Shown here: one piece after another, positions 33,444 to 50,800 of the stretch | Layout: each line of letters opens with the position of its first letter | How positions within the stretch are numbered: the stretch's first letter is position 1 | Origin: Pararcticibacter amylolyticus | Lineage (GTDB): Bacteria; Bacteroidota; Bacteroidia; Sphingobacteriales; Sphingobacteriaceae | DNA length: 59,152 bases | Direction: 5' to 3' | Assembly (NCBI RefSeq): GCF_003130405.1 | Contig: NZ_QEAS01000008.1 | Coordinates: 217,082-276,233, forward strand | Made by a program: the position numbers and the translations under genes | Notes under the pieces: generated by a model | Database searches by the model: none | Told to the model about the DNA's origin: nothing | What the model saw: only the letters and a program-made list of their open reading frames with translations

Positions 33444-33948
33444 AGCAAAAGGACGACCGTTGAGGAGTTTATCAAATTTTCACTCAGTGTGCAGAATCGC
33501 AGGAAGGCGAGGGGCAGGGCTTGCCTTCGAAAATAACCTTGCTGTAATTTTCTCAGCAAACAGGATTCATTATTCCCATGGGGCTGTAACTGAAAGAAAT
33601 AATAGGCCTGATTTTATTTTTCGAGGAATCAAATATTATAATGATCCTCACTTTAACACGTCGTTGCTCACAATGCTGGGTTTAAAGACAACTGCAAAAG
33701 ACAGATGGAGGCAGGTGTTGTCAGAAGCAGCGAAAATTCCCCATAAGCATTTAATCACTCTTGAACCGGCAATCAGCCGGAACCAGACTGAGGAGATGCG
33801 GGTCAACCACCTTCAACTCGTAATTCCCTCGCCCTTATATTCCACAGATACTTCTGAACAGCAAAAGCAGCTGATTTCACTGAAGGATTTTATAACAATT
33901 GTTGACGGCAAGCAAAAGCAGTATAGTGACACTACGTTGTTGTTTTAA
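33444..33948 (+). pseudogene. EcoRII C-terminal-like restriction endonuclease, fragment
   Basis: Before a frameshift near 33510 the frame reads TVEEFIKFSLSVQNRRKARG. After it comes AGLAFENNLAVIF, then ERNNRPDFIFRGIKYYND, LTMLGLKTTAKDRWRQVLSE, HLITLEPAISRNQTEEMRVN and LQLVIPSPL. This is the catalytic C-terminal domain of EcoRII-type nucleases, with the PD-(D/E)XK residues in PDFIF and the KTTAKDRW segment. Intact enzymes have an N-terminal effector domain and a paired cytosine methyltransferase; neither is visible. The ORF from 33460 starts out of frame, so the gene is dead. Confidence 0.75.
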
Positions 33949-34321: not shown

Positions 34322-35443
34322 TTAGCTAGGAGTGTATTTGGTGAATGATGAATATTCGGTTTTATCATTAAAATCAAAAATTACAGCGACGCTGCTTCTA
34401 GCCCTGGTCAAAGCCACATAGAATTTCGATCGGCTCGTTGGCGCAAGAACAGTGCTACGGCTCTTCAACCAGTCGAGTATGGGTTGGGTCGGATAGATCA
34501 ACACTCGCTCGAATGACAGCCCCTTGGACTCTCCGAAATTCATGACCTCGTACTGTTGATCGACAGCCTGGGTAACCTTATCCCGCAGTTGTATCGGTCG
34601 GTATTTGGCTAGATATCCGGCTACATCGGCCGGCCGTATAAAAAATAAGCCATCATGCCCGGTAACCGTAAAGTTGCCAGAACTTGTTGGCTTAAAATCG
34701 GGAAAAAGGGAATTGGAAAGATCGCAGATAGCTTTAATACAGCGATGGTTGACCATTAAAGAAGTGTCATCTGTCGTTAGACCTAAAGAATGGTCTTCAA
34801 AAAAATGTACGATCTCTGACTTTTTAAATTGTTTATTTTTAGCAGCGTTGGCGGTCGAATAAGTGCCTTGACGAGGGTCGCCGACCAGCAATATCTCTGC
34901 CTTGCAATTGAATAATAGCTTTAAGAATTCCAGATCGTAACCAGCCAGGTCCTGTACCTCATCTATGAAAATATTCGTGTAGATATTTGTAAGCCGCTCG
35001 ATCACTGCGCCATCGGAACGTTCGTTACAACGCACCACGAACTTGGCTAATTTATCAGAGTAGACCTTCATCCCGGGAGTAAAGTAATGTCGTTCGAACT
35101 CCTTTTCACTGAAATAGATGGGTTTGCCAAAACGGTCTTCACCTTTTTTACCGGACTGCCCGCTTACCAATAACAAACCATTGATCCGTTTCTCTAGCAA
35201 ACAGCCCTGAAAAGGGCGTACCCCATGCTGCAATAAAAAACTGAACCAGGTTTGAACAGTGATATTAGGCGGGATACAATGATTGAGTTCTACGATCTTA
35301 TTTCGTATCTCCTGCTCATTGGCTTCTGTGAACGTCGTAATGAGCACCCGTTTACCTTTAACTTTAAGCGCTTCCTTGACCAGGTGTGTTGTTTTGCCTG
35401 AACCTGCCGCCGCTACGATCAAATTATTTGTCCCGGTTGTCAT
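34322..35443 (-). CDS. UvrD/PcrA-like helicase, GajB-like
   Basis: A 373-residue superfamily 1 helicase-type protein. Walker A AAAGSGKTT at residues 11-19, motif II IFIDEVQDL, motif III LLVGDPRQGTYST, and motif VI YVALTRARSSVAVIF are all present. It starts inside the stop of the OLD nuclease gene (ATGA overlap). An OLD-family nuclease followed by a UvrD-like helicase is the layout of Gabija anti-phage systems, where GajB senses DNA termini or nucleotides and activates GajA. It is shorter than the known GajB of about 490 residues, mainly in the 1B/2B subdomains, so a sister system is also possible. Confidence 0.8.
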   Translation of the reverse strand: MTTGTNNLIVAAAGSGKTTHLVKEALKVKGKRVLITTFTEANEQEIRNKIVELNHCIPPNITVQTWFSFLLQHGVRPFQGCLLEKRINGLLLVSGQSGKKGEDRFGKPIYFSEKEFERHYFTPGMKVYSDKLAKFVVRCNERSDGAVIERLTNIYTNIFIDEVQDLAGYDLEFLKLLFNCKAEILLVGDPRQGTYSTANAAKNKQFKKSEIVHFFEDHSLGLTTDDTSLMVNHRCIKAICDLSNSLFPDFKPTSSGNFTVTGHDGLFFIRPADVAGYLAKYRPIQLRDKVTQAVDQQYEVMNFGESKGLSFERVLIYPTQPILDWLKSRSTVLAPTSRSKFYVALTRARSSVAVIFDFNDKTEYSSFTKYTPS

Positions 35444-37083
35444 TGGATCGCTTCTAAAATATAGTCGGGCAATTCGATTTCTTCATTGCTGTTAAAGACC
35501 TTTAAAGCACAATCGGTCTTGTTCGCTTTCATGTAGCGGTGCAAATCTTCGATATCGGTATAGCTGGTACCTAAAACGGTATTCATTTTTGCCAGATTGT
35601 TGCTTGCGACGATCCTGGGTTCAAGTGTATTAAAATTAAACGGTTTTGCATCTGAAGTCCCCCGCCTTGTGTCAACCGTTTTGTCATAATATATCTTGAT
35701 GTTTGCCTTTTCGTTGGGGCCTAAATAGTCTTCATACTTCTTTTCCAGAGCTGTAATATCACCGTCGTTATCGGTAATCACAACTACCGGTTTTCCTACT
35801 TTTTCGGCGATCTCCAGGAAGCGTAAGAAAGAGGTACCGACCGAAATGACATCAATTCCTTTTTCAATAGGAAGCTTACCATTATGCTTTTCCCGGAAAG
35901 CACGCTGCACCACTAACTCATCAGAATCGCCTTCTACCAGGATGGCCTTCTTACATAAGATCAAACGCAAGGTGTCATAACCGGCCAGTTTTCGGAAAAA
36001 ATCCTGGGTCTTCGGATTAAGGTCGTTCAACCTAGCCGCCTTTTGGTTGTTTAATAATATCAGATGCTCCAACCCCAACTTATTCGCTACAAAACTGCTG
36101 TGGGTTGAAATGAGCAATTGTTTTTCAGATTGTTCAGTTTGAATATCATCGATCAGTTGGTTTAGTTTGGAATAGGACAAATGATTCTCCGGTTCTTCCA
36201 GTAAGATCATATTGGCCTGTTTGGCTTTATTATGCCCCAGGGCTAATTTGGTTTTGATGATACACTGCTCTCCCTTACCTATGTAATGAAAAGGCACATC
36301 ATCCAAATAGGTCATCAGGCTGCTTTCCCAGGCATTTTTGGAGGAAAGCTCGACCGAAAGTTCGATCTGTTTTTCAGTGATCTTAGCCGCTTTCCTGATC
36401 TTTTCATTAATTGTTTGAATAGCAGACTGAGCCATAAAATATTCTTTCATCTGCCGGTGCGACTGAGAAATCTTGACGATCTCTTCATCGTCCAAAAACT
36501 CTTTGATGATACGTGAGACGTAAATGTCTGACCCGTTTTGATACCTATTGCTCGCAGAATCTATCAAGGCAGATTTAATAGGTATCGTCCGAGGGGTAAT
36601 ACTTTCATCCCTAGCAAAAGATGACCAGTGCACTTCGTAGTATTCAACAGGCAAGGTTTTAATTCCACCTGCCTGCACCAACTTTTCATATTCGTCTTGG
36701 TATTTATCATTGAACTGGATCTTAAGCGATACGCCGGCCTGTTTTGCACGTTCTCTATTCCCATTGCCTTCAAATTCAGCGATGTCGTCACCAGCCATGA
36801 CCACTTCGATAAGAATATGCGGTAACAAGGCATTTTTACCTTTTGCCTCCAGCTCTGTGATATAGGTGGTAATTACTTCGCTGTTAAAAATATACTGCGT
36901 GAGTTCATTCTTTAGATAACGCCCATGCAATAAGCCAGTCAATGCCAAATGTATGGCCTCTAATATGGTAGATTTTCCGGCTTCGTTATTGCCGACCAAA
37001 ATATTTATCCCTTGGTTCAGCGGTAGCTTAAACAGGCCTTTAAAACATTTAAAATTCTCGATAATAACTTTTTGTATATGCAT
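35440..37083 (-). CDS. OLD-family ATP-dependent nuclease, GajA-like
   Basis: I chose the Met at 37083 (MHIQKVIIENFKCF, 547 residues), because the 14 residues upstream are not part of the conserved ABC-type first strand. The N-terminal ATPase has Walker A GNNEAGKST (residues 31-39) and MILLEEPENHLSYSKLNQLI (signature and Walker B). The C-terminal TOPRIM nuclease has AILVEGDSDELVVQRAFREK and VVVITDNDGDITALEKKYED. This is a class-2 OLD protein, which in Gabija nicks phage DNA when nucleotides are depleted. It is the first gene of a two-gene operon with the UvrD-like helicase. Confidence 0.87.
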   Translation of the reverse strand: MHIQKVIIENFKCFKGLFKLPLNQGINILVGNNEAGKSTILEAIHLALTGLLHGRYLKNELTQYIFNSEVITTYITELEAKGKNALLPHILIEVVMAGDDIAEFEGNGNRERAKQAGVSLKIQFNDKYQDEYEKLVQAGGIKTLPVEYYEVHWSSFARDESITPRTIPIKSALIDSASNRYQNGSDIYVSRIIKEFLDDEEIVKISQSHRQMKEYFMAQSAIQTINEKIRKAAKITEKQIELSVELSSKNAWESSLMTYLDDVPFHYIGKGEQCIIKTKLALGHNKAKQANMILLEEPENHLSYSKLNQLIDDIQTEQSEKQLLISTHSSFVANKLGLEHLILLNNQKAARLNDLNPKTQDFFRKLAGYDTLRLILCKKAILVEGDSDELVVQRAFREKHNGKLPIEKGIDVISVGTSFLRFLEIAEKVGKPVVVITDNDGDITALEKKYEDYLGPNEKANIKIYYDKTVDTRRGTSDAKPFNFNTLEPRIVASNNLAKMNTVLGTSYTDIEDLHRYMKANKTDCALKVFNSNEEIELPDYILEAIQ

Positions 37084-37624
37084 GGTGATCGGTTCAATAA
37101 GTAAAAGTAGGAAATAATATTCCATCTTTTATCTAGCCTTTTTGATCACCAGATCCGCTTTAGAAGATCTAACAAATGCCGCTCGAGCACCATTCCGACA
37201 ATATCGTTCAGGCATTGAAAACGGACTAAGCGTCCATCCATTCATCGATTTAACAAGAAGTGACAATGTTTAAATGAGCATTAAGACCCTGAAATAATCG
37301 GGTAACCGCTAATCGATAGAAGCAGACTGAAAATATGGTAAACTTTTACTGTTCCACCGTATGAGGATCTTAAACTTTTAATTCCTGCTCTTCAAAGATG
37401 GAAGTGATGATCGTGGCATAATCTTCTTTGGCGATCTTTCTTGTTAAAGTATCTTTGACGATCTTGTGAATGATTGGTACTTGGGGGCAAAACAATAATT
37501 TTATTTTGATGCCCCGTCTCTTAAATGCACATTCCATATCCGAGCTATACACAGGGATAATTCAAATACGAAAAATTTTCTTCTGATGCTATATTGTTTT
37601 AAATTGTTGATAGATTAGCATTGT
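37084..37624. other. Intergenic region between Gabija-like and YobI-like genes
   Basis: The 540 bases hold one minus-strand ORF of 60 residues (37370-37552), starting MYSSDMECAFKRRGIKIKLL and ending HKIVKDTLTRKIAKEDYATI ... EEQELKV. It looks protein-like and could be a small regulator of the Gabija-like operon, or the tail of a lost gene. The rest shows no gene. The promoters of both divergent large genes must lie here; I see no clear consensus element. Confidence 0.4.
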
Positions 37625-40600
37625 ATGATTAAATTTATTCGCTATTGTCTGGCGTATTTTAAAAAGGCATCCCCTCAACCAGTTAGCCAAATCGATTCTC
37701 TTGCACCTAAAATCTTAACAAAGCCAGAAGATCTGAAAAAGGTCCAGCCATATTTAGATGCGCTTAAAAATGCTATTACCGATTCTGAAATTACAAATAT
37801 TGCGCTTACTGGTGGCTATGGCTCAGGTAAAAGTACAATTATCAGGACCTTCCAGAGTCAATTTCCCCAATACTATTATTTGAATCTGTCTTTAGCTTCC
37901 TTCAAGGATATTAAGGATGAAAAAAATGGGTCAGGGGAGAACAGTGGTAAGAATCTGGAGCGACAACTTGAAGTAAGTATCCTGCAACAGATTTTTTATC
38001 ATGTACGGCCCTCTGACATACCGGATTCAAGGTTCAAACGCATTGTTAATTTAACCACAGCAAAAATTTGGCTTTATGCAGCGTCTCTAGTCTTATGGGT
38101 CGCCAGTTCGCTCGTCCTGTTTCAATTAAAATACGTAAACAAATTGGATCCACAGAACTGGGATACTGAGAAAGAATTTGACTTTTTTGCGCCAATTCCA
38201 TTCATTATATTTTTCACTGGCGTTGGCCTATTTGCCAAATCAATAATAAGGCTTTTTAGTAATTCAAAGATCAGCAAGTTCACGATCAAGGGAGAGCTTG
38301 AACTGGGTGACAAAATCGACAAGTCAGTTTTTAACGAGCATCTGGAGGAGATTATTTACTTCTTCGAAAGAACAACGTATAACGTTGTAGTTATCGAGGA
38401 TCTTGACCGCTTTGAAACCACTGACATTTTTACCAAACTTCGTGAGATTAATATACTTTTAAATAGTTCCATATCGGTTGCCAGAGAGATCAATTTTGTG
38501 TACGCTATCAAAGATGAGATGTTCACCGATAAAAGTGAACGTGTAAAGTTCTTTGAATATATCATTCCGGTTATACCATTTATAAATCCCTCAAATGCAG
38601 GTGAACAGATGGCTCGTTTGATCGGAAATTCATCGCTAGAAGGGGTATTATCGAAGGAATTTACCGAAGATGTAGTCACTTTCATTGATGACATAGATAT
38701 GAGGCTGCTTACAAACATATTTCATGAGTATCAATTGTACCGGTCAAATATAAATGATGATGAGTTGAATCAGGATGAGCTTTTTGCTATGATAACCTAT
38801 AAAAACTTGTTTCCAGACGATTTCGGTGAACTTCATAAACGTAAGGGAAAGCTTTATAGCTTTATCGCAGGCAAGGATAGATATATAGAAGGATTAAAAT
38901 CGGCACACAATAAAAAGATCAACGAAATAGCAAGGAAAATTTCAAATATTGAGAAAGAACAGATTAACGATCTTCATGAGCTACGCAAGATCTATCTTTT
39001 AGAATACTTCAATCAGATCCCAGATGCCGTTGCCTTTATTATTGATGGCCAGCAGAGAAAGATCAGCGATCTTATTGATGAAGAAATATTTGATAAATTG
39101 AGAGCCACTACCAATGTAAATTATCAATTTTATTCTAGTCGCTACTACAGCAACGAATATTATCTTACCAGCACCAATATTGATCTCCCGTTTAGCAAAA
39201 TAGAAGCTGCTGTCAGTCAGTATTTTACTTATGACGAGCGAGTTGAGTTCATTAATGGCAGGGTTGATAACGTACAAAAATTGCTTAAAACTGACATCCA
39301 GAAGTTAAAGGCTGAAATCATAGAAATGGATTCATGGAATCTTAAGAAAATATTTGAATTGGTCAGCATCGATCCATATCTGGAAAGCTTTTCTGATAAT
39401 TATCTCATTCGCAACCTACTTCTGAACGGTTATCTGAATGAAAACTATAGTGATTATATATCACTTTTTCATGCAGTAAACTTGACAAAAGAAGATAATA
39501 CGTTTCTACGGTACCTTAAAAGCGGTATCAGCGCTCCATTCGAGTATAAGCTTACCCGGTTGGAAAACCTCTTTAAGAGAATTTCCCTTAAATATTTCAG
39601 CCGTCTGGCCGTATTGAACTTCGACCTAATGGATCACATGGCAGAAAATTACAGCTCCTGCAAAGAGGCATACAATTCAGTTATCAAACAGCTCTGTTCA
39701 GTATCAGATAAGAAAACTTCATTTATCGATACATATCTTGACAAACGTCGAAATCATTCTGCGCTTTTCATTAATAGGCTTTGTAAAGAGTGGAATGCGT
39801 TTTGGGATGAGGTTGTCCACAAAGGAAATTTCACAACGGATAGAAAGAATGAGTACCTTTTATTGATTTTAGAGCATGCAGATGTGCCTGATATTGTTGA
39901 ATTAGGTACAACTATTAAATCGTATATCGAAAAACATGAACGTATCATAGAATTGCTGAATCACATAGATATAGAAAAGGCTAAAGATATATTGACATCG
40001 TTGAACGTAAAAATAGAATCCCTATCTATGCCTTCTGCACAGTCCCATGAGATATTTGATCATATCTATATTAATACTTTTTACAAGATAACTGCCAATA
40101 ACATCGCTACCATTCTTACCTTTAAGAATCCCGATATCGATGAACAGCAACTTAAAAAGGCCAATTATACGACGGTATTTAGTTCCGGCTGCACGACACT
40201 TACTTCCTATCTTGAATCACATTTAGAAAACTATGTGAAGGGAGTTGTATTGAGGTCTGGAAATAATGAAGAGGCAGAGTCGTCTCTTATAGCAATGCTT
40301 AACCATGAACAGATTACAGAAGGTACGAAAATAGCGCTAATAAGCTCACAATCAACAATACTTTGCCATTTAAGCGATATTGAAAACCAACCAATCCGAG
40401 CAGCACTGATCCAAGGCAACAAAATAAAAGTAAACTGGGAGAACCTGCTGGTTTATTTCGAGCAATTAGATACTAAAGAACTGGATGGTACCCTGGTCAA
40501 TTTTCTTAATCAATCTGAGGCTTTTGAGCCACTTTCAGAGCAAAATATGACAGTAATCACATCTTATGATAAGAATACCGTCAAATCGTTTTTTGTAAAG

Positions 40601-41314
40601 ATTTTGTATTGTAACGAATTATCATATGAGGCATACACCTCCTTAATCAAGAGCTATCCTGTGAGGTGGATCGAGCTATCTTTCGAACACTTGGAAAAGG
40701 ACAAAGTCAAACACCTCGTTGAGAATAACATTTTAAGTTTTGAAGTTGGCAATTACAATAATTTGCGTAGCAAATTCGGCGCAGAAAATTATCACATAAT
40801 GTTTATTGAAAAAAATCGCCTCGATTTTTTCGAGAAAGTCAACGACATAGAAATTGAAAGCAACGAGCTATCCAAACTTTTGCAATCCACAAGCTTTTCC
40901 TTTGAAGAGAAATTAAAACTTATCGAATATGTAAAAGATACAGATGAAAATTTGATTATTGAAAATATCACTATAGCAAGGCAGGTATGCCATATCTTAT
41001 CAAAATCGGCATATATAGAAATATCCTCTTCACTGATGGAATGTCTATTTAAGAGTTCTTCTTCAGTAGAGGATAGGATCCGGCTACTTAATATGCATAA
41101 CAGCAAATGTTCTGATACCGAATTTGAGGAACTTGTTTCTAAATTAGGTGACGATTACAAAGATTTGTTTAAAAAGAAGCATAAGCCAACATTTTCAATA
41201 ACAGAATACAACAGGGACCTTTTCAATACCTTAAAAGACCGTAGGATGATAAAAAGCTTTGATAAAGATTGGAAGGATGAAGGTAAATATCGGGTAATAG
41301 CCAATTACCAGTGA
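37625..41314 (+). CDS. YobI-like P-loop NTPase, membrane-anchored
   Basis: A 1229-residue protein. Walker A GGYGSGKST lies at residues 63-71 and Walker B VVVIEDLDRFE at about 254-264, followed by an arginine/sensor region (NFVYAIKDEMF). Two membrane spans (about 148-168 and 189-208) interrupt the NTPase domain, as in KAP and YobI-type STAND-like ATPases. The following 900 residues are long helical repeats of Ile/Leu-rich segments, likely a sensor. Such large NTPases are found in defence islands. The gene is AT-rich compared with the SusC loci, which suggests foreign origin. Its neighbour is the Gabija-like pair. It is complete. Confidence 0.78.
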   Translation: MIKFIRYCLAYFKKASPQPVSQIDSLAPKILTKPEDLKKVQPYLDALKNAITDSEITNIALTGGYGSGKSTIIRTFQSQFPQYYYLNLSLASFKDIKDEKNGSGENSGKNLERQLEVSILQQIFYHVRPSDIPDSRFKRIVNLTTAKIWLYAASLVLWVASSLVLFQLKYVNKLDPQNWDTEKEFDFFAPIPFIIFFTGVGLFAKSIIRLFSNSKISKFTIKGELELGDKIDKSVFNEHLEEIIYFFERTTYNVVVIEDLDRFETTDIFTKLREINILLNSSISVAREINFVYAIKDEMFTDKSERVKFFEYIIPVIPFINPSNAGEQMARLIGNSSLEGVLSKEFTEDVVTFIDDIDMRLLTNIFHEYQLYRSNINDDELNQDELFAMITYKNLFPDDFGELHKRKGKLYSFIAGKDRYIEGLKSAHNKKINEIARKISNIEKEQINDLHELRKIYLLEYFNQIPDAVAFIIDGQQRKISDLIDEEIFDKLRATTNVNYQFYSSRYYSNEYYLTSTNIDLPFSKIEAAVSQYFTYDERVEFINGRVDNVQKLLKTDIQKLKAEIIEMDSWNLKKIFELVSIDPYLESFSDNYLIRNLLLNGYLNENYSDYISLFHAVNLTKEDNTFLRYLKSGISAPFEYKLTRLENLFKRISLKYFSRLAVLNFDLMDHMAENYSSCKEAYNSVIKQLCSVSDKKTSFIDTYLDKRRNHSALFINRLCKEWNAFWDEVVHKGNFTTDRKNEYLLLILEHADVPDIVELGTTIKSYIEKHERIIELLNHIDIEKAKDILTSLNVKIESLSMPSAQSHEIFDHIYINTFYKITANNIATILTFKNPDIDEQQLKKANYTTVFSSGCTTLTSYLESHLENYVKGVVLRSGNNEEAESSLIAMLNHEQITEGTKIALISSQSTILCHLSDIENQPIRAALIQGNKIKVNWENLLVYFEQLDTKELDGTLVNFLNQSEAFEPLSEQNMTVITSYDKNTVKSFFVKILYCNELSYEAYTSLIKSYPVRWIELSFEHLEKDKVKHLVENNILSFEVGNYNNLRSKFGAENYHIMFIEKNRLDFFEKVNDIEIESNELSKLLQSTSFSFEEKLKLIEYVKDTDENLIIENITIARQVCHILSKSAYIEISSSLMECLFKSSSSVEDRIRLLNMHNSKCSDTEFEELVSKLGDDYKDLFKKKHKPTFSITEYNRDLFNTLKDRRMIKSFDKDWKDEGKYRVIANYQ

Positions 41315-41488
41315 TTTTTTAACAGTCTAAAGGGTACTTCTAATCTTCAGGCTAACTGCGGTAAAGAAAATAGTTTTATCTAGCGATTTTATAAATTATC
41401 AACACATATCGGTATCCGCCCGACTAACCCCATCTTGACCTTCAATTCTTAATAGTCTTACTTTGTCCGCACGATAAAGATAAAAGGA

Positions 41489-41764
41489 ATGGATCAAAGA
41501 GAAAGAATGAGGTCAGAGGTTGAGCGCTGGCGTCAAAGTGGATTATCACAAAAAGAGTTCTGCAAGGAGTTGGGAATGAAAGTAGGGACGTTTGCCTACT
41601 GGGTATCCCGAAGCAAAGAATCAGAAAAGAAGAAAGGATTTATACCGCTGGCTCCCCCTGCCGGATCGGTAGAGTTAATAGAAGTTAGTTACCCTAACGG
41701 AGTGCGCGTCAAAGTACCAGCCTTAGATCTGAAAGTCCTTTCTCAGCTCATCCATTTGTATTAA
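41489..41764 (+). CDS. IS66 TnpA-like protein
   Basis: This 91-residue helix-turn-helix protein begins RMRSEVERWRQSGLSQKEFC then KELGMKVGTFAYWVSRSKES, the standard start of IS66 accessory TnpA proteins, followed by the beta-rich ELIEVSYPNGVRVKVPA tail. It binds the element ends in intact IS66 copies. The open frame is undamaged, but the transposase downstream is not. Confidence 0.8.
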   Translation: MDQRERMRSEVERWRQSGLSQKEFCKELGMKVGTFAYWVSRSKESEKKKGFIPLAPPAGSVELIEVSYPNGVRVKVPALDLKVLSQLIHLY

Positions 41765-41814
41765 TGTTCAGCCTGTCAACAGGAAGAAATCAAAGAACAG
41801 ATCACCTATACCCG

Positions 41815-43050
41815 TAAAAAGTAGTCTTCACATAAAGGCCGTGCTGCCCTTCCTGCACACTTACCGGTAGAGAAATTGAGATCCACCCAGAGGGGGATCT
41901 AACGGATATGGTCTGCATCGGTAAAGAAGTAACCGAAGAACTGGAATGTGAGCCTGCCCGCTTCTTTATCCGCCGCTACATCCGTTATAAGTATACCGCT
42001 AAAAACGAAGAAGGAGTAAAAACCGGAGAGCTTCCCGAACGGGGATCGATAAAGGCATTCCGGGAGCAGGGCTGCTGGCCATGATCCTTACTGATAAATA
42101 CATGGATCATTTGCCGCTCTCCCGGCAAAAGCAGCGCTTTGCCCGGGAGAGCATCCCCATAGCCTCCTCTACCATTGAAGGCTGGGTCAAACAGGCACTG
42201 GAAAGACTGGAACCACTCTACCAGCAACTCAGGTTTGATATCAAAAAGGGTATTTACAGGTCGATGAGACCAGCATCAAGTATTGGAAAGCGATAAGAAA
42301 GGTGCTGCCCATATGGGCTGGTATTGGGTCTACCATAGTCCTTTAGATGGGTTGGTAATGATGGGCTATCAGCCTACCCGGGGTGCGGCAGCCACTACGG
42401 AGATGCTTAAAAGCTTTAAAGGATACCTCCAGAGTGACGGGTACGGCGTATACGAAAAGATAGGTCAGCGAGCCGAGGTAACACCGGTAGCCTGCTGGGC
42501 CCATGCCTGAAGGGAGTTTGAACGGGCACGGGATAATGATAAAACCAGGGCAACTAAAGCCCTCCATCTCATCCAACAACTGTATGCAGTAGAGCGAAAG
42601 GCAAAAGAGGAAGGACTCTGTGCCCAGCAGATCAAAGCGCTTCGCCTGGAAGAATCTCTTCCGGTGATCAATGAACTGGGAAAATGGATCTTTCATGAGG
42701 TAAAGAACACCTTGCCCAAAAGTCAGATCGGTAAAGCCATGCGCTATGCCATGGAGCGCTGGGATAAGTTAAGCGCCTATCTGCAGGACGGAAGCTTGTT
42801 AATTGACAATAACCAAATCGAGAATGCACTGAGGCCCATCTCTCTGGGTCGCAAGATCTACCTCTTTGCAGGAAGCCATGATGCAGCTGCCAGAGCAGGG
42901 ATGATCTATTCCTTTTTTGCTATTTGCAAAAAGCATGAGGTGAATCCGCTGCAGTGGTTGAAACACGCCCTGCAAAATATGATGACGATTAACCATAAGA
43001 ACATTCGAGACCTCTATCCGCAGAATTATAAGAAACTAATCGAGTCCTAA
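41815..43050 (+). pseudogene. IS66 TnpC transposase, several frameshifts and a stop
   Basis: In order, and in at least three frames: LPAHLPVEKLRSTQ-like start, DMVCIGKEVTEELECEPARF, AMILTDKYMDHLPLSRQKQR, SIPIASSTIEGWVKQALERL, then KGAAHMGWYWVYHSPLDGLV, LQSDGYGVYEKIG, CWAHA followed by TGA at 42508, and the final LIDNNQIENALRPISLGRKI then LFAGSHDAAARAGMIYSFFA. These are the zinc-finger, DDE and C-terminal parts of IS66 transposase. Breaks occur near 42040, 42290 and 42508. The deep part of the DDE domain is still readable, so decay is recent to moderate. Confidence 0.85.
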
Positions 43051-43084
43051 AAGACAGGGTTGGTCGGGCGGATACCTTATTATC

Positions 43085-43135
43085 CACTTAATTAATTATT
43101 ATTGTTCAACCAACAAGGGGAGGTACAATAATATG
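43085..43135 (+). repeat. Leader shared with the gene at 17.7 kb
   Basis: A gap-free match to 17690-17740, described there. Here it begins 9 bases after the right end of IS66, so the element probably inserted just upstream of a cassette, or carried part of its upstream region away. A GGGGAGG stretch lies 10 bases before the ATG and may be the ribosome binding site; the 17.7 kb copy has GGGTCGG at that place. Confidence 0.6.
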
Positions 43136-44041
43136 TATGAAAAATTAGCGAAATACGCTGGGTTATTGCCGCTGGTGGCTGTATTCGTGTACTTGTTTGG
43201 ATATGTAATGCTGAATGCATATCTAAACAATTTTGGAATAACTGAAAACGTAGCCCTGGATGAACGGATTTTGAGTTTAGGTATTTTGTATCTTGTAATC
43301 ATAGCGCCCATAATATTAGTCTGCTTTGCAACATTTAAATTCGGAGATTACAGGAACGTCAATCAGTCTACCTACCCCGAACTAATTGATAACCTTCATG
43401 ATGCTTTTGGTTATTCTTTGCTCTATGCATTGTCATTAGGGGCCTTGCTACTAAAAACGGCAATGGATAATTCGACTATAGTGGTTTTAGGCATACTGGC
43501 AGTTGCTGCCATAATTAATAAAGTACCAATGAAATCAACGGTTCGCATGTACTTAAAAGGTGCATTCATGATCTCGTCTTTTTTTATCTATGTTACTATA
43601 GGCATCAGTGGGGTTGTCTCACCAAAAACCTGGTTTTATCTTGTCGTATTTATGGCTTTCCTAACTTGTATAGGTCTTCGCATATTTAATAAAGAAGGCA
43701 CAACCTATCAGGCAAGCCGAATAGCGATAGTCGTTACTACCCTGCTGGCTCTTGCATCAACAGTTGGCGCAAATTTAATTGGTCATATTCCTGCTCAGTA
43801 TGGGGGCGAAAAGCGTGACAAAATTGTCTACTTCCTGGATATGACTGCTGTTGACAAACTAAAAAGAACACAGCTTAAGCCGTATATAGAAAAAGACAAT
43901 TCGGTAACCATGCAATCCGTCTATCAAAATTCGGATCGGATTTATTTCTTAACGCCAAATCAATACGTTCTTTCTATTCCCAAATCTTTCGTCGAATCAG
44001 AACAGGTTAAAGTCCCTAAATATAATTATGTTGACAGGTAA
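43133..44041 (+). CDS. Multi-span membrane protein, unknown function
   Basis: A 302-residue protein with about seven hydrophobic segments in residues 8-220 (for example LPLVAVFVYLFGYVMLNAYL, ILYLVIIAPIILVCFATFKF, MISSFFIYVTIGISGVV, IAIVVTTLLALASTVGANLI). A soluble C-terminal domain of about 80 residues (KIVYFLDMTAVDKLKRTQLK) follows. No family is recognised. The layout, membrane part followed by a small soluble domain, parallels the protein at 17738 whose leader it shares. An immunity or transport function is possible. Confidence 0.55.
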   Translation: MYEKLAKYAGLLPLVAVFVYLFGYVMLNAYLNNFGITENVALDERILSLGILYLVIIAPIILVCFATFKFGDYRNVNQSTYPELIDNLHDAFGYSLLYALSLGALLLKTAMDNSTIVVLGILAVAAIINKVPMKSTVRMYLKGAFMISSFFIYVTIGISGVVSPKTWFYLVVFMAFLTCIGLRIFNKEGTTYQASRIAIVVTTLLALASTVGANLIGHIPAQYGGEKRDKIVYFLDMTAVDKLKRTQLKPYIEKDNSVTMQSVYQNSDRIYFLTPNQYVLSIPKSFVESEQVKVPKYNYVDR

Positions 44042-44075
44042 TTCGCTGCTAAATCCCATATAGAAGTACATCAAC

Positions 44076-44264
44076 TTACAGCAGATCTTTATATTTCAGC
44101 TTTAGTCTGATACCCAGCCCGGAATCTGCTTTTTTATTGAGATCCATCTTTAATATCTTATTTCCAGGGAGCTGAACTTTTTGAATATGTAACCTCCCAC
44201 AAAAAAGGAACAGTTTAAAGCTAGAATAATTAACTGTCAAAATGTAGATTTCCTCAGGTGTCAA
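44076..44264 (-). CDS. Small ORF, uncertain
   Basis: A 62-residue ORF from a TTG at 44264 (TPEEIYILTVNYSSFKLFLF ... SGLGIRLKLKYKDLL) with 11 bases between it and the preceding small gene on the same strand. It is basic and beta-rich and looks like a partial or complete small protein. No ATG is available. It could be the second gene of a two-gene unit with 44276-44449. Confidence 0.3.
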   Translation of the reverse strand: MTPEEIYILTVNYSSFKLFLFCGRLHIQKVQLPGNKILKMDLNKKADSGLGIRLKLKYKDLL

Positions 44265-44275
44265 ATTGTCCTTCT

Positions 44276-44449
44276 TTAGAATTTCTTAAGTTTATTTTCA
44301 TCTTTTATTTTCTCCATTTCCAGGAGAAAATCCCTCGTATATTTTCTAGCTTGTTCAGAGTCAATACCTGATTTATCGAAAATTGGTCTTGCAGACACCA
44401 TTTTTGGTGGTTCCGTCTTTTTATTATCAGAAGTCTTATTCTTTTTCAT
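44276..44449 (-). CDS. Small charged protein
   Basis: A 57-residue ORF starting at the ATG at 44449: MKKNKTSDNKKTEPPKMVSA then RPIFDKSGIDSEQARKYTRD and FLLEMEKIKDENKLKKF. It has a disordered lysine-rich start and a helix. The shape resembles the small antitoxin-like proteins that precede a toxin gene, and the next ORF (44264-44076) is in the right place for such a partner. This is only suggestive. Confidence 0.35.
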   Translation of the reverse strand: MKKNKTSDNKKTEPPKMVSARPIFDKSGIDSEQARKYTRDFLLEMEKIKDENKLKKF

Positions 44450-44669
44450 CAATCATAAAAATTTAAACATTAAGATACATTTTAATTTGTTGAATAAAAG
44501 CGACAAATCAAGTCGCAAAGAAGATAGCCGCGATATAAACTGATTTATGAAGCCCTTTTGAATGGGGTTATGAAGAAGAATTATATCTCTAGTATCCAAA
44601 GGATCCGGTTCTTTTGTAACAGCGAAGCTTAAGTTATCAACAATCAACTGGTTGTGTGAGTAAATTCGC

Positions 44670-44700
44670 TTGTAGTGTGTTGGCAAATGTCGTACCTTTA
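44670..44700 (+). promoter_or_regulatory. Promoter of the wHTH-HEPN pair
   Basis: TTG at 44670-44672 and TACCTTTA at 44693-44700, 20 bases apart, differ from the Bacteroidota consensus TAnnTTTG only in the last base. The ATG of the first gene follows 23 bases later. Confidence 0.55.
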
Positions 44701-44723
44701 TTAATCCAGATTTAGGTAAAAAC

Positions 44724-45308
44724 ATGTTTGACAAGGAAATTGAAGCAATTGCAAAGTGCACAGAGTTAGTAAAGGATCTTGATGAAGACGCGAAATTTAG
44801 AGTTATAAAATATTTAATAGAAAGGTTTGGCATCGCATCGCAACCCCAAAATTATACTGGCAACAGAAGTGCACCTACCAATGGCGATATAACATTAATA
44901 CAAAATGGGGCAAACGCGGCTTATAGTAACGAAAATGCCTCAGACCCATCTGAATATCCAAGTCTTAGAGACTTGATGATTAAAAACTATCCAAAGAATG
45001 AAAATGAGTGGATCTTGTGTTATTCGTTTTATTCATCAAAATTTGGAACTGACACGTTTACTCGTGATGAAATATTAGAAAAGTACCGTGAAAATAATCG
45101 ATTGAATAAAAGCACAAGTGGAAATTTGAATAATAACATAGCGGCTTGTATAAAAAAAGATTGGATCAAAACAAGTGGAGAAAATTTTATACTGAAACCG
45201 GAGGGTATAAACTATGCAAGGGAAATTTTAGCGGGCAGGTCTACCTCCAAAGAAGTAAAGCAAACAAAGCGTAAGTCAAAACAAACACAAAACGAAAATA
45301 ATGCTTGA
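44724..45308 (+). CDS. Winged-helix-type protein, first gene of a two-gene unit with HEPN
   Basis: A 194-residue protein. The N-terminal helix (EIEAIAKCTELVKDLDEDAK then FRVIKYLIERFG) resembles short coiled dimerisation segments. A low-complexity linker spans about 40-80. The C-terminal part, NEWILCYSFYSSKFGTDTFT, RDEILEKYRENNRLNK, LNNNIAACIKKDWIKTSGEN and FILKPEGINYAREIL, has the pattern of a winged helix (first helix, recognition helix NLNNNIAACIKKDW, wing FxLKPEG). A Lys-rich tail ends it. Its last eight bases overlap the HEPN gene, so the two are coupled. It could be an antitoxin or nucleic-acid sensor for the HEPN protein. Confidence 0.6.
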   Translation: MFDKEIEAIAKCTELVKDLDEDAKFRVIKYLIERFGIASQPQNYTGNRSAPTNGDITLIQNGANAAYSNENASDPSEYPSLRDLMIKNYPKNENEWILCYSFYSSKFGTDTFTRDEILEKYRENNRLNKSTSGNLNNNIAACIKKDWIKTSGENFILKPEGINYAREILAGRSTSKEVKQTKRKSKQTQNENNA

Positions 45309-46140
45309 TGACTTGCAAAGTTTTGTAGACAGTGTAAAGGATTTCACTAATCTTAAAACCTCAGAAAAAGTAGACTACTTCGCACTGTTTTTTTTGGAAG
45401 TAGAAAAGAAAGCTGACTTCAACCATAAAGATATTGTTTTGGCATTTCAGCAACTTAAACTTGTGCCATTATCAAATATCCGACGATATTTAATAAGTCA
45501 TTCAAATAAAGCAACGCCAAAAAGAAGAAAAGTTAAATTTATAAAAACTAAGACAGGTTTTCATATTGAGGGAAATTATAACGTTGAATTAAAGACAAAT
45601 ATAATTGCGCAAGAAGTGCCATTTATTAACTACAGTGTTAATGCTGGCCACTTTGAATTGAAACCTAGCGATATTCCATTTTTAAATGCAAAAATCAAGA
45701 GAAATGCTGAGTTTTTTTCGAAAATTTATTTCTTGCTATATCATCTGGAAAATAGCATTAGAAAATTTTTGACCATTCGATTGAGTTCAATTCTTGGTCA
45801 GGATTGGGAAAAAACCGTGTGTTCTGATATTGATTTGGTTAAAGCTGAAAGAATTCGGTCTGAAATCCATCTGTCAGAGATGCTGCCAAAAAGAGGGGAT
45901 ACTATTTTATACTATTGCATGTGGGACGATTACGGTAAGTTCTTAAAACAGTATCCTAATATATTTGATGATCGAAAAGAGACCGACGAAGTGTTGGCAC
46001 ATTTAAATTCGCTATCTAAAATACGAAACGCTGTAGCCCACAACGCCAGCACGATTCCAAAAGAATATCAGGATGAGCTAACACTATTCCTGAAAAAATA
46101 TATCAAAATAATGAAAAATTATGCACTGGATCAAGACTAA
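45301..46140 (+). CDS. HEPN-domain protein (Swt1-like)
   Basis: A 279-residue protein. The C-terminal half resembles the Swt1-type HEPN domain: FFSKIYFLLYHLENSIRKFL, then SLSKIRNAVAHNASTIPKEY. The R-x4-H motif of HEPN ribonucleases is present as Arg242 and His247 (RNAVAH). The N-terminal half has an all-helix segment (VDYFALFFLEVEKKADFNHK) and a small beta part. HEPN proteins often cleave RNA, and pairs of such a gene with a DNA-binding partner occur in toxin-antitoxin and abortive-infection systems. The motif and the coupling to the winged-helix gene support that reading. This exact pair is unfamiliar to me. Confidence 0.65.
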   Translation: MLDDLQSFVDSVKDFTNLKTSEKVDYFALFFLEVEKKADFNHKDIVLAFQQLKLVPLSNIRRYLISHSNKATPKRRKVKFIKTKTGFHIEGNYNVELKTNIIAQEVPFINYSVNAGHFELKPSDIPFLNAKIKRNAEFFSKIYFLLYHLENSIRKFLTIRLSSILGQDWEKTVCSDIDLVKAERIRSEIHLSEMLPKRGDTILYYCMWDDYGKFLKQYPNIFDDRKETDEVLAHLNSLSKIRNAVAHNASTIPKEYQDELTLFLKKYIKIMKNYALDQD

Positions 46141-46384
46141 CTAAATACTTTTTTAGACATTGGCTTGCATCATATTTTTTCGAGATGATATTGAAATATA
46201 ATATGTCACTTCGTTGTTATATTTCCTCAAGTTAAATTTTAAGATGTGCTCTTCAATCGTATTTTAAATTCTGCAAAACTTCACATGAAATTTGCAGGCT
46301 GCTCTCCTTTTCCGGGCGAGACAGATTCTCATTTAATGGATTAAGTAAGGTGACAATACACCAAACGGTTAGAAATGAGACAAA

Positions 46385-46621
46385 CTATTCTTCTAGATTT
46401 GAGAAATCTAGCAACTGATCAACTGAAGCATTCAATGCCTCTGCAATTTGAACTAAAATGTAAGCTGTCGGATTAGCTCCTTGCCGTTCGTACCGATTTA
46501 TAAATTGTTTATCTTTCCCTATGATAGCTGCTAATTCTCCCTGCTCAAGATTCTTATCTTCCCTTAATTGCTGTATTCGTTTTCCAAGTTTCGTTCTGAA
46601 GCTTTTTTGAGACAAGTTCAT
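46385..46621 (-). CDS. XRE-family transcriptional regulator
   Basis: I chose the Met at 46621 (MNLSQKSFRTKLGKRIQQLR); the ORF reaches further upstream but without conserved sequence. The 78-residue protein is little more than a helix-turn-helix: EQGELAAIIGKDKQFINRYE then RQGANPTAYILVQIAEALNA. It is divergent from the promoter at 46662-46692 and its own gene start is 35 bases from the palindrome AACAAATTTGTT, which it most likely binds. It could repress the structured RNA transcript. Confidence 0.8.
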   Translation of the reverse strand: MNLSQKSFRTKLGKRIQQLREDKNLEQGELAAIIGKDKQFINRYERQGANPTAYILVQIAEALNASVDQLLDFSNLEE

Positions 46622-46655
46622 TGCGCAAACTCCGGAATTAATAAAAATACTGGTC

Positions 46656-46692
46656 AACAAATTTGTTTACTATGCCTAATTTGCTATCTTTG
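46656..46692 (+). promoter_or_regulatory. Strong promoter overlapped by a palindromic operator
   Basis: TTTG at 46662-46665 and TATCTTTG at 46685-46692 are separated by 19 bases, a very good fit to the Bacteroidota housekeeping promoter. The perfect 12-base palindrome AACAAATTTGTT (46656-46667) covers the upstream element, so a repressor bound there would block it. The neighbouring XRE gene is the obvious candidate. Confidence 0.75.
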
Positions 46693-46698
46693 AGTTAT

Positions 46699-46952
46699 GT
46701 AATAGAAACAAATAGAGATATAATATAGGCATTAAAAAGAGTCTTGCAGCTCCACTCTCAGGTCGTTTCTGCAAGAAGCAGTAAAATGCCCCAATACTTT
46801 CGGGAAAGCGTATATTTGCAAATACTGAAGGTGTGGGGCTCTGCTATACACCCGTGGAAACGTAAGACCTGAGAATCTATGGAGCTACGGGATGCAGGTC
46901 CCACACTTTAGTAATTCCTGTATCTTGTGGCACGGCTCGTTAAGAAAACGAG
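46699..46952 (+). ncRNA. Structured, multibranched RNA of unknown class
   Basis: No long ORF is present, but the sequence folds strongly. A closing stem pairs AGCTCCA (46748-46754) with TGGAGCT (46880-46886), CTCAGGTC (46757-46764) with GACCTGAG (46866-46873), and GTTTC (46765-46769) with GAAAC (46857-46861). An inner stem pairs AGCAG (46777-46781) with CTGCT (46841-46845) and GCCCCA (46788-46793) with TGGGGC (46834-46839). Two small hairpins (CTTT-CGGG-AAAG and GTAT...ATAC) lie inside, and CTCGTT/AACGAG forms one near 46935-46952. It starts about 7 bases after the promoter. I do not recognise a known class; no reverse transcriptase is present. Confidence 0.6.
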
Positions 46953-46955
46953 TTG

Positions 46956-47189
46956 ATGAAAAAACAGTTCAAGCAAAAAGAATTTAAGCTCCAGGTATAC
47001 ATAACTAAAAAAGGTAAAGGGACTGTTACTTCCTTTCGTACTTTACCTTCTTGGCTGGTAGCATCGGGTAAAATTCGTTGCAAGTTGCACTTATCTTCAC
47101 TATTATCAGAAAGGCAAGATTATTTGCGAGGTCTCGTTTTCTATCGATTTCTCTTACTGTTTGCTAGGAAACCTAAAAATCCCATCTGA
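46956..47189 (+). CDS. Short lysine-rich ORF after the structured RNA, uncertain
   Basis: Begins MKKQFKQKEFKLQVYITKKG and has 77 residues from the ATG at 46956. The second half is rich in Leu and Arg but without a clear pattern. The first 25 codons look plausible as a small basic protein; the rest may not be coding. The inverted repeat AAGGTAAAG ... CTTTACCTT (47009-47052) inside it could equally be a structural element of the RNA. It may be a leader-controlled small protein, or chance. Confidence 0.3.
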   Translation: MKKQFKQKEFKLQVYITKKGKGTVTSFRTLPSWLVASGKIRCKLHLSSLLSERQDYLRGLVFYRFLLLFARKPKNPI

Positions 47190-47242
47190 AACCTCTCTAA
47201 CTCACCTCAATATCTTTTATCATTTCATTCATCTGTAATTAC

Positions 47243-47413
47243 ATGAAGAAATCTCAGGAGCAGATCTTTCAGTTCGTTAATTCGCATTCCCAGGAGGAAA
47301 GCAAACAATTGTTATGGACATTGCTGAAGTCAGCCGTAGTCGGAAACTTAGGTGATTTGTTGCCTATCGAACGGGAGAATCTGCTTCTTTTATTGAAACG
47401 CCCGGTCAAATGA
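47243..47413 (+). CDS. Small protein, paralogue of the next small ORF
   Basis: A 56-residue ORF, MKKSQEQIFQFVNSHSQEES then KQLLWTLLKSAVVGNLGDLL and PIERENLLLLLKRPVK. Its centre aligns with the ORF at 47557 (LLW-x-L-L-K-S-A-V-V-G-N-L-G against LWRIMRSVVTGEFG, and ER-x-NL). Small proteins of this kind upstream of TonB-dependent receptor genes may be regulators or assembly factors. No known domain is visible. Confidence 0.6.
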   Translation: MKKSQEQIFQFVNSHSQEESKQLLWTLLKSAVVGNLGDLLPIERENLLLLLKRPVK

Positions 47414-47556
47414 TCGATGGTGTTCACGAGGAATATCCATCAAAGTTCGACAGATGATCCTGACTCAACTTCACTTCTCCTTAACTCATTAAAAATGAAA
47501 GCAAGAAACAACCCTTTTTCTCTGATCGCAATAGCCGGAAAGGAGGTTTACATCTG

Positions 47557-47787
47557 ATGTCACCGTTTTCCGAATTTATGATAAACTACGACGAGGAGTA
47601 TAGCAGAGAGTATTTGTGGAGAATAATGAGATCCGTCGTGACCGGCGAATTCGGCTCCTTCTCCCGCAAAGAACGCAGCAACCTCATCTCTTTTTATGAA
47701 GCCCTCGACGGCCTTTTGTCAGACATTTACAAACACAGCAACGCAGCTGAAGAATCCCAAAAGAACGAAGGAGGCCCGGCAGGATAA
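47557..47787 (+). CDS. Small protein upstream of SusC, paralogue of the preceding ORF
   Basis: A 76-residue acidic protein beginning MSPFSEFMINYDEEYSREYL. A strong ribosome binding site AAAGGAGGT lies 8 bases before the start, unusual for this genome. The core WRIMRSVVTGEFGSFSRKER then SNLISFYEALDGLLSDIYKH repeats the pattern of the 47243 gene. Stop and SusC start are 78 bases apart with a GCCGGCCTC-type GC-rich stretch between. Function unknown. Confidence 0.65.
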   Translation: MSPFSEFMINYDEEYSREYLWRIMRSVVTGEFGSFSRKERSNLISFYEALDGLLSDIYKHSNAAEESQKNEGGPAG

Positions 47788-47865
47788 TCCCTGCGTTTTC
47801 CTCTTAATACACAAGGCCGCCCGGCCTCCATAGTCTTTTCTTAACCCTTTAATCATTAATCAAAA

Positions 47866-50800
47866 ATGCTCAAAATCCGAGTACAGGGGATTCTTTTGTC
47901 CTGTTTTAAGCAAAAAAAGAAACATCATAACCCTTCGGCGGAAACTCCCGCCCCGATACAACAACCAGCGTCCGAAAAACTTCTCGGTCAGTACCTGCTC
48001 TGTTTTTACATCCTGATGATCATCCTCTTCTCCCTGATGGCCATCGTCAGCACCTACGCGCAAACTGGCCATTCCATCAAAGGAAAAGTCACCGACGAAA
48101 AAGGCGAAGCCCTCCCCGGAGCACTCATTAAAGTGAAAGGCACCGCACTGGCCACCTCCTCCGGCAAAGACGGCGTTTTCTCCTTTCAGAACATTCCCCC
48201 CGGTGCCGTCCTGGTCATTTCCTTCATCGGCTATCAAACCCTCGAAACCAGCTTGAAGCCAGGGCAGACCTTCCTTCCCGTTTCGCTCAATCCCGATAAT
48301 ACCCAGCTCAGCGAAGTGCAGGTCGTGAGCACCGGCTACCAGCAGCTCCCCAAAGAAAGGGCAACAGGAAGTTTTACTTTTATTGATAACAAGACACTGA
48401 ACCGGGCTGTATCTCCCGACCTGATCAGCCGCCTCAACGGAGTAACCAATGGCTTGCTGGTCGACAAAACGGTAGGCTTCAACATCCGCGGACGCAGCAC
48501 CATCTTTGCCAATACCGCTCCTCTGGTTGTGATCGATAACTTTCCCTTCGAAGGGGATATCAATACCATCAACCCCAACGACGTCGAAACCGTCACTCTT
48601 TTAAAAGACGCCGCCGCAGCTTCCATCTGGGGTGTCCGTGCCGGAAACGGGGTGCTGGTGATCACCACAAAGAAGGGGAGAGCGAATGAGAAAACGAAAG
48701 TGGAGCTGAACAGCAACCTCACTGTAGGTGCTAAGCCAGACCTGTATTACCAGCCGCAGTTGTCATCCGGCGAGTTTATCGACCTGGAAAAAGCGCTTTA
48801 TGAAAAAGGAGCGTATACAACAGCGCTCAATACAGATTACATGGTGATATCGCCGGTGGTTGAACTCCTGCAGAAAGCAAAGCTTCAGCCCGACTTTGCC
48901 GCACAGGCAAACGCGGAAATCGATGCACTGCGCAGCCTCGACATGCGCGACCAGCTGGATAAATATTACTACCGGAACAGCACACGCCAGCAGTATCATT
49001 TCAACATCAGGGGAGGCGGCCCCGCCCAAACGTATTTCTTCTCTGCCGGATACGACAAAGACCTGCCCAATGAGGTAGCCGCCTCCAGTTCGAGGATCAC
49101 CCTGAAGGCAAGCAATTCGTATTCTTTTCTCGCCGGGAAACTTACTCTTTCTCCGGATATTACCTACACCCGCAGTGAAATGAAGAACACCAACGCCGCG
49201 GGTTATTCCCCGTTTTTGCCATACGAGCAGATCGCTGACGAGCATGGAAATGCCCTTCCGGTTCTCATGAACGGATATTACCGCTCAGCGTACACGGACA
49301 CCGCCGGAAACGGGAAACTGCTCGACTGGAAGTTTCGTCCTCTGGAGGAATTGCGAAACGGCAGTTCATGGTCGAATCCGAAGACCAACGACTACCGGAT
49401 CCTCCTTGGAGCGGCTTACAAGATCCTGCCGTCGCTCACTGCTTCTGCCAGTTACCAATACTTTAGCTCGAATTTGCGGGGAGAAGTGTCTTACGGAGCT
49501 AATTCCTTTTACACCCGCGACATGATCAACAAGTTTTCACGGATCAATGCTGCTACCGGAGAAGTGATCAGGCCGATAGAAACGGGCGATATTTATACTC
49601 CGTCGTTTTCTTCAAACCAGGGGAACTACGGCAGGGTGCAGGCCGACTTCAGGAAGCTGATCGCCGGTAAGCATGAGGTATCGGCCCTGGCTGGCTATGA
49701 ACTCAGGGAGGACAAAACAGCTTATAACTCATACACGCTGTATGCCTACAAGCCTTCTACCGCAACCAGCCAGGTGGTGGATGCCATTACCCAGTTTCCC
49801 TACTATTATAACGCGGGCATAACTTCCAGGATCTCCAGCCGGACATCGGAAAGCGGCACGGTAGACCGTTATATTTCATACTATATTAACGCTTCATACA
49901 CCTATGATGAGAGGTACATCGTGTCTGGAAGTTATCGTAAGGACGAATCGAATCTGTTCGGCGTAAAGGCTAACCAGAAGGGAGTTCCGTTGTGGTCGGC
50001 AGGATTTGCATGGAATGCTCATAAGTCGGCCATACTCAGTTCCGACCTCTTTTCTTTTTTACAGCTCAGAGCGACCTATGGATACAACGGTAATGTAGAC
50101 CGTAGTCTGTCGGCATATCTTACGGCTGAGCCTGCCGGGCTGAATACGTTCAACCGTAATTACTATTCCGTTACCAATCCGCCGAATGACGATCTCCGGT
50201 GGGAACGGGTGAGGAATATCAATTTTGCGCTTGAATTTGCAACCCAGGCCCGGCGCTTGTCGGGAAGCGTGGAATATTTTTCCAAGAAGGGGATAGACCT
50301 GATCGGCAGCAGCCCGGTTGCACCGCAGACCGGAAGGGTTTCGTATACCGGAAATACGGCAAATTCCATGACCAGGGGATTTGATCTGCAACTGAACAGC
50401 CTGAATACCAACGGCGCATTCCGCTGGACAACAACGGGAATTCTCAATATTGCGAAAGACCGGGTAAAGGAGTACAAGCTGGATCCTCTGACGAATGCTT
50501 CGATCCTTACCACCCCAATCACTCCGATCGCAGGATATCCCGTAAGATCGGTATTTGCTTACAGGTGGCGTGGCCTGGATGCAACAGGGGAGCCCAGGGG
50601 AGAGTTGAACGGGGAAATCAGTACCGACTATCTGCAGATCCGTAACTCGATGGATTATAATCAACTAAACTTTTATGGCTCGGCGGTCCCTACCTTATAT
50701 GGTAGTTTGCGTAACACCTTTTCCTATAAAAAGGCAGAGCTTTCCTTTGCTCTCACCTATAAATACGGTTATTACTTCCGGAGGAGTTCGGTCAGGTACG

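Follow-up and report, generated by a model that had tools for sequence, protein, structure and literature searches.

Results

A winged-helix gene and a HEPN gene overlap in Pararcticibacter amylolyticus

The window (the whole 59,152-nucleotide stretch of Pararcticibacter amylolyticus DNA that was analysed) carries two forward-strand genes, here called A and B, and both open reading frames and their 8-base overlap lie exactly where the initial annotation had placed them. The features of the locus, in window positions, are as follows:

44670-44700 (+), possible Bacteroidetes-type promoter, TTG-N20-TACCTTTA, a pattern match only
44724-45308 (+), gene A, 194 amino acids: helical N-terminus, linker, winged helix and basic tail
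44724-44834 (+), first 37 residues of A, predicted to form a helical hairpin (modelled helices at 2-16 and 21-35, pLDDT 48-63)
44961-45233 (+), A winged-helix domain, residues 80-170, from the model and profile comparison
45234-45305 (+), A basic tail, net charge +5 over the last 25 residues
45301-45308 (+), overlap of A and B, 8 bases
45301-46140 (+), gene B, 279 amino acids: winged helix and HEPN domain
45301-45600 (+), winged-helix-like domain at the B N-terminus (residues 1-100), a homologue of the second winged helix in long A proteins
45478-45570 (+), B basic wing region, residues 60-90, net charge +9
45661-46125 (+), B HEPN domain, about residues 121-275, from Pfam, PADLOC and HMM matches
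45748-45762 (+), E-x3-R motif ENSIR, B residues 150-154, within the HEPN domain
46024-46041 (+), R-x4-H motif RNAVAH, B residues 242-247, predicted RNase active site

The near-consensus promoter that the initial annotation assigned to the pair is weakly suggested by the site at 44670-44700, where the annotated feature began; it matches TTG-N20-TACCTTTA, which we take to be the Bacteroidetes promoter consensus, and the 59-kb window has 12 sites of this type on one strand and 11 on the other. Sigma-70-type sites, on the other hand, are at chance level (7 found in 44042-46400 versus 9.2 expected), and the sites listed include none on the + strand from 44042 to the start of A. No Rfam family was matched in 41000-48000.

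Protein A has a winged helix and a nearly invariant N-terminus

The AlphaFold model of A has the helix-helix-helix-hairpin-helix topology of a winged helix, with pLDDT values of 73-88 in residues 91-120 and 131-170 (57 in 121-130). VIA-align Z scores were 10.5 for Hel308, 9.7 for one chain from the retron-Ec86/effector complex and 9.4-9.6 for MarR/MepR and viral F-93, with Z of at least 8 in 151 of 999 aligned chains; the best 50 of these 151, judged by their titles, are mostly winged-helix proteins. Model and Z scores together bear out the winged helix that had been read in A, and the fold assignment rests on VIA-align, since Foldseek found no match to the A model at E 0.001 (best 0.035, MotA). 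The window's A is named by no model in Pfam (searched to E 5) or in PADLOC and NCBIfam (both searched to E 1), and those relatives of A that were scanned against the same three collections gave only zinc-ribbon and other weak matches. Sequence searches of solved structures returned nothing convincing.

The most conserved stretch of the pair is A residues 1-37, which are 92-97% identical across three genera; by the same measure the HEPN domain reaches 65-73%, the A winged helix 58-68%, the B winged helix 43-44% and the A linker 11-27%. Synonymous codons in this stretch have drifted as they have elsewhere (43-59% the same, versus 40-57% in the three other domains), so the identity reflects protein-level selection on a small surface, which probably is an oligomerisation or docking site. 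The idea that the hairpin is a common module was set aside: a search with it matched 2 of 231 genomes in the window's family (the window's own and the already known Mucilaginibacter) and 0 of 195 in a second family, the latter search having no positive control. A 303-aa protein at another locus (L022, 706-1617) has a 50%-identical version of the hairpin and no match to the A winged-helix HMM, and the hairpin may be a reusable module. The charge of the basic tail is +3 and +4 in the two closest relatives (L002 and L003, below) and 0 or negative in several distant A proteins.

Protein B joins a winged helix of its own to a HEPN domain

The R-x4-H motif claimed for B is present (RNAVAH, R242 and H247). 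Motifs of the forms R-x4-6-H and E-x3-[KR] are described for HEPN RNases in PMC3710099, and by its R-x4-6-H motif B is predicted to be a HEPN protein of the active-RNase type. Conservation of R-x4-H, which had been set beforehand as a test, was found in all 18 distinct sequences of the window's HEPN family (window included), a set that takes in PDC-M34B-type genes, HEPN genes that neighbour DUF262-like genes and one gene of a cyanobacterial plasmid; E-N-x-x-R is likewise kept in 18 of 18. Pfam matches of the window's B are to HEPN_RiboL-PSP (5e-5) and HEPN_Swt1 (6.5e-4), both under the curated cut-offs, and its relative at L024 matches HEPN_Swt1 at 5.6e-9, above the cut-off. The earlier label "Swt1-like" is a fair one, and "RiboL-PSP-like" would be equally apt. 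PADLOC matches residues 127-256 of B to PDC-M34B at 3.2e-13.

With a mean pLDDT of 49, the model of B is too poor to be trusted. In it the N-terminus looks like helices and then a beta hairpin, and the C-terminus, with pLDDT mostly 32-63, is all helical; structure matches are weak, with the HEPN toxin 7ae8 (Z 5.8) and Csx1-Crn2 (Z 5.3) standing among unrelated helical bundles, and Foldseek with this model gave no match at E 0.001 in the PDB or among viral models.

The initial annotation overlooked the winged helix at the start of B itself, and it did not see the pair as one subtype within a broader modular family (below). In hhalign comparisons the B N-terminus aligns with the second winged helix of long A proteins at a probability of 97 (E 1e-10), and the first and second A winged helices align with each other at 93 (E 3e-7). 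Direct comparison of the B N-terminus with the first A winged helix, the type present in the window's A, is not significant (probabilities 2.8 and 13), so the relationship between B and the first A domain runs through the second A winged helix. Residues 60-90 of B are basic in all 19 proteins tested, with net charges of +2 to +9.

The pair is conserved as neighbours

Conservation of the two genes as neighbours, the other test set beforehand, is complete among the relatives found: A lies directly upstream of B in 22 of 22 cases in which B has the winged helix (two of the 22 are nearly identical, L021 being a near copy of L006), with A-to-B spacings of -50 to +10 bases. Close copies stand side by side in Flavobacterium sp. 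H122 (L002; A 54% and B 60% identical) and Mucilaginibacter sp. PPCGB 2223 (L003; A 62% and B 57%), and this close subtype was seen in 3 genomes. The overlap itself is not conserved, the gap being +5 in L002 and +2 in L003, but close spacing is kept. When the genes of 19 loci were compared all against all (single linkage, E 1e-5), A formed one cluster present in 19 of 19 loci and B fell into two clusters of 12 and 7 loci. Every other gene family recurred in at most 3 of the 19; these comprise two beside a TonB/SusC-type gene, one recombinase-type and one relaxase-type family (named from domain matches or by eye). Since only A and B recur in more than 3 loci, the unit is two genes.

Four genome samples, two of which contain the window's own genome by design or draw, were searched, and full pairs were found in 4/395, 9/400, 9/344 and 4/395 genomes, respectively, in the order given here (the labels "spurious" and "-like" are judgements from translations):

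Phylum sample, B query: 10 of 395 genomes matched; the 10 matches are 4 winged-helix B genes (all with A), 2 PDC-M34-like genes (L007 confirmed by PADLOC, L011 by likeness), 3 other HEPN genes (L004, L008, L009) and 1 spurious (L012)
Order sample, A query: 11 of 400 genomes; the 12 matches are 10 A genes, each upstream of B (one via a second A), 1 with the N-terminus only (L022) and 1 spurious (L023)
Second family sample, B profile: 15 of 344 genomes; the 17 matches are 9 winged-helix B genes, each accompanied by A, 4 HEPN genes next to a DUF262-like gene, 2 PDC-M34-like genes (L037, the same place as L007, and L038 by likeness) and 2 other HEPN genes (L036, L039)
Class sample, B winged-helix profile: 6 of 395 genomes; of the 8 matches, 4 are B genes accompanied by A, 2 fall on the second winged helix of an A gene, 1 is a winged-helix protein standing alone, with no B in its 3.2-kb locus (L049), and 1 is spurious (L048)

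HMMs built from the three close members alone recovered the B N-terminus from another 14 distinct B genes (2e-7 to 1e-22), and they matched the A winged helix of most A genes. They found neither domain in L028, L031 and L034, and missed the B N-terminus in L024 as well. The B N-termini of these four join the other B proteins by profile comparison (probability 96.5, E 1e-9; 3.0 against the close three alone). The C-terminal part of A in L028, L031 and L034 gave probabilities of at most 2.6 against the other winged helices, too low to support homology, and these A genes are tied to the others by their zinc-ribbon front half.

The window's B had no match in plasmid and phage collections, and four viral_contigs scans, with B, A1, A2 and the L028 B, gave none either; the latter used exact or degenerate short-peptide seeds and so are informative on close copies only. 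A plasmid or phage home for the close subtype was set aside on these grounds. Plasmid searches with two relatives found a conjugative cyanobacterial plasmid with a related HEPN gene and no A-HMM match (L042); they also found a complete pair on one plasmid of Ochrobactrum (L043). Around the Mucilaginibacter pair (L003) lie recombinase, relaxase and T4SS coupling protein genes, a mobile context.

This distribution bears on whether A and B might be a non-defence pair that acts in RNA processing or regulation. Eukaryotic Swt1, which has such a HEPN domain, acts in RNA surveillance according to PMC3710099, which would fit; against this stand the patchy occurrence, with the close subtype in 3 genomes and family pairs at the frequencies above, and the mobile context of L003, and we think such a role improbable.

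The pair is one subtype of a modular family

Behind its winged helix B carries one of three kinds of C-terminal module, found in 7, 10 and 5 of the 22 genes. The first is the HEPN_Swt1/RiboL-PSP type of the window (7/22, all with R-x4-H). The second is DUF4145-like (10/22) and has D-x-S-x-H-x-x-R in place of R-x4-H (R-x4-H in 0/10); Pfam DUF4145, which belongs to the HEPN superfamily, matched 7 of the 9 such B proteins scanned (E up to 1, best 6.8e-4). The third (5/22) is a second R-x4-H type, of which the L017 protein has a weak HepT match (0.017). A tree of B N-termini (21 rows, with L021 left out as the near copy of L006) requires 3 effector-type changes against a possible minimum of 2, and a test of a single origin for the HEPN_Swt1 type does not reject it (p-AU 0.166); repeated exchange of effectors behind the B winged helix is suggested.

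The A proteins vary at their fronts. Four CxxC motifs lie within the first 65 residues of 12 of 21 A genes (L021 again excluded), and in both CxxC-type genes scanned, L006 and L017, Pfam finds a double zinc ribbon (5e-10 and 9e-7, respectively); other fronts are a short beta-alpha stretch (by eye) or, in the window's type, the helical hairpin. Long A proteins carry a second winged helix. One locus has two A genes in tandem before B (genome G408, L024, 125-1060 and 1063-2250), the first without and the second with the zinc-ribbon CxxC motifs.

A tentative wider reading, which we hold to be quite possible, is that these pairs constitute an unnamed modular immune family in which control protein and effector share a winged-helix family as common adaptor or nucleic-acid reader, and in which HEPN-superfamily effectors of at least three kinds are exchangeable. 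The control protein would then consist of a variable N-terminus (zinc ribbon, small beta-alpha stretch or 37-residue hairpin) followed by one or two winged helices.

The sizes of the A proteins matter for another possibility, that the pair is an ordinary type II toxin-antitoxin system, with A a DNA-binding, self-repressing antitoxin that neutralises B and any defence incidental. The two genes are closely spaced, L003 lies in a mobile context and the winged helix of A has a fold like that of MarR/PadR-type repressors, all of which would fit. In 12 of 21 pairs (near copy L021 excluded), however, A is longer than 300 amino acids, which is large for an antitoxin; the toxin itself would also hold a winged helix; and a search of the ~165 bases before A found no inverted repeat with arms of at least 8 bases in the window or L002, and a single imperfect 16-base palindrome in L003. 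We regard an ordinary system of this type as unlikely.

Known defence genes lie nearby

The claim that the pair has defence genes as neighbours is confirmed by PADLOC, which identified Gabija at 34322-37125 (- strand; GajB 7e-141, GajA 2e-221) and, adjoining it, a Tmn gene at 37625-41314 (+ strand, 1e-82). Among other genes of the region, a 162-aa open reading frame at 33460-33948 (+) matches the EcoRII C-terminal domain at 2.7e-44; an IS66 transposase remnant lies between Tmn and the pair at 42664-43050 (+; 2.7e-22), and it is the C-terminal end only (profile positions 209-283 of 284). A 302-aa likely membrane protein is encoded upstream of A at 43133-44041 (+), with a weak PycTM match (4.8e-4), and it has no match at 1e-4 in 31 pair and control regions or in L002, L003, L042 and L043.

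The Mucilaginibacter pair has a YhcG-type nuclease (PDC-S02) as a neighbour. A 284-aa gene begins 26 bases after its B (L003, 8861-9715); it has an IECKK stretch that looks PD-(D/E)XK-like by eye and no Pfam or PADLOC match at 0.01. At L060 a Tmn-like gene, 27% identical to the window's Tmn, begins 127 bases after B.

Such neighbours were weighed against control regions by using 15 of the 16 pair regions fetched (the G099 contig was too short for a control) and 8 genes per locus. PADLOC at 1e-20 matched 16 families in the 120 neighbour genes of the 15 loci, including AbiL, AriA/AriB, Tmn, Mokosh, IetS and AbiG parts, and 82 families in 120 control genes taken from 15 regions elsewhere on those contigs, with Gabija, DpdF, Avs4 and PsyrT among them; at least one control region holds Gabija and other systems. 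With 82 families in the controls versus 16 near the pairs, this comparison does not demonstrate an enrichment of defence genes around the pair.

Relationship to known systems

The initial annotation knew of no named system with this combination, which is mostly right, A being unnamed in Pfam, PADLOC and NCBIfam; the HEPN part, however, is already modelled as PDC-M34B. PDC-M34 is a PADLOC candidate two-gene defence system, and in it, as here, a first gene lies directly upstream of a related HEPN gene (L007). The strength of the B match (3e-13) and the shared position of the HEPN gene as second in a two-gene unit would favour membership of our pair, but A has no PDC-M34A match at E up to 1, and three PDC-M34A-type proteins combined into a profile align with the winged-helix domains at hhalign probabilities of 0.1-0.3. 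Moreover, the L007 protein, which has 192 aa and matches PDC-M34B from end to end at 7e-82, lacks the N-terminal winged helix. The PDC-M34 first gene looks, presumably, DUF5343-like. We rejected membership on the missing PDC-M34A match, and consider it highly improbable.

In several genomes (L004/L032, L035, L040 and L041) closely similar HEPN genes immediately follow a gene that looks DUF262/HNH-like by eye. These HEPN proteins were found by the same HMM and share R-x4-H with B, but the partner in L004, L035, L040 and L041 has no A-HMM match, and the arrangement is another two-gene HEPN unit. Table 1 of PMC3710099 lists RiboL-PSP-HEPN as "in operon with ParB".

Tha, a HEPN anti-phage protein of a Staphylococcus prophage, has 301 amino acids and, like B, a C-terminal HEPN domain with R-x4-H, the histidine of which is needed for defence; it is inhibited by Ith and activated by phage tail proteins (PMC11087260). 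It differs from B in that the account of it in PMC11087260 reports no recognisable N-terminal domain and describes no winged-helix partner.

PD-T7-3 and PD-Lambda-5 gave weak single matches (L017 B, 1.6e-5, and L006 B, 4.4e-5, respectively), but to other effector types only, and the window's B matches neither at E up to 1. The HEPN-MNT (HepT/MntA) type VII toxin-antitoxin system also combines a HEPN RNase toxin with a neighbouring control gene; its partner is a nucleotidyltransferase, whereas A is a winged-helix protein. The pair would appear to belong among such HEPN-effector two-gene conflict systems, in which its shared winged-helix design looks unusual. No published description of the pair was recognised in open-licence PMC full text.

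Discussion

We propose, with a probability of about one half, that A and B form a horizontally moving two-gene unit, toxin-antitoxin-like or of the abortive-infection kind, in which A would keep the HEPN domain of B off until a phage trigger appears. B would be the effector, its HEPN ribonuclease domain carried behind a basic winged helix and probably dimeric, with R242 and H247 in the active cleft. A would be its partner and control subunit, having a winged helix of the same family and the constrained 37-residue hairpin, which probably oligomerises A or docks it onto B or a host target. In healthy cells an A-B complex, formed through or on the related winged helices, would hold the HEPN dimer off; a phage-derived trigger, either nucleic acid on the winged helices or a protein, would free or activate the dimer, and the released HEPN domain would cleave RNA, upon which growth would stop. 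What the sequences show is the gene pairing, the domain composition, the conserved motifs, the several effector types behind a single N-terminal domain and the mobile element around one close relative; RNase activity, complex formation, restraint of B by A (the "senses and holds" role raised in the initial annotation), the trigger and a part in defence are inferred.

The opposite sign of control is possible but less probable, namely that A is an activator: the winged helices of A and B would bind the same foreign nucleic acid, and assembly on it would join the HEPN domains as an RNase. Both partners have winged helices of one family and that of B has a basic wing, and many relatives' A proteins look reader-like, with four CxxC motifs in 12 of 21, the double zinc ribbon and the second winged helix. 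The window's own A, however, has neither zinc ribbon nor second winged helix. Moreover, the usual gene order of toxin-antitoxin systems is antitoxin first and toxin second, closely coupled, and the close coupling of A and B in that order matches it equally. From sequence we somewhat favour A holding B off over A switching it on.

If A does hold B off as proposed, the pair would be a compact two-gene system whose control and killing proteins share one domain family. Members of its family occur here in several Bacteroidota families as well as on a plasmid of an alphaproteobacterium, and the near-invariant 37-residue N-terminus of A would offer a precise handle on what the system touches.
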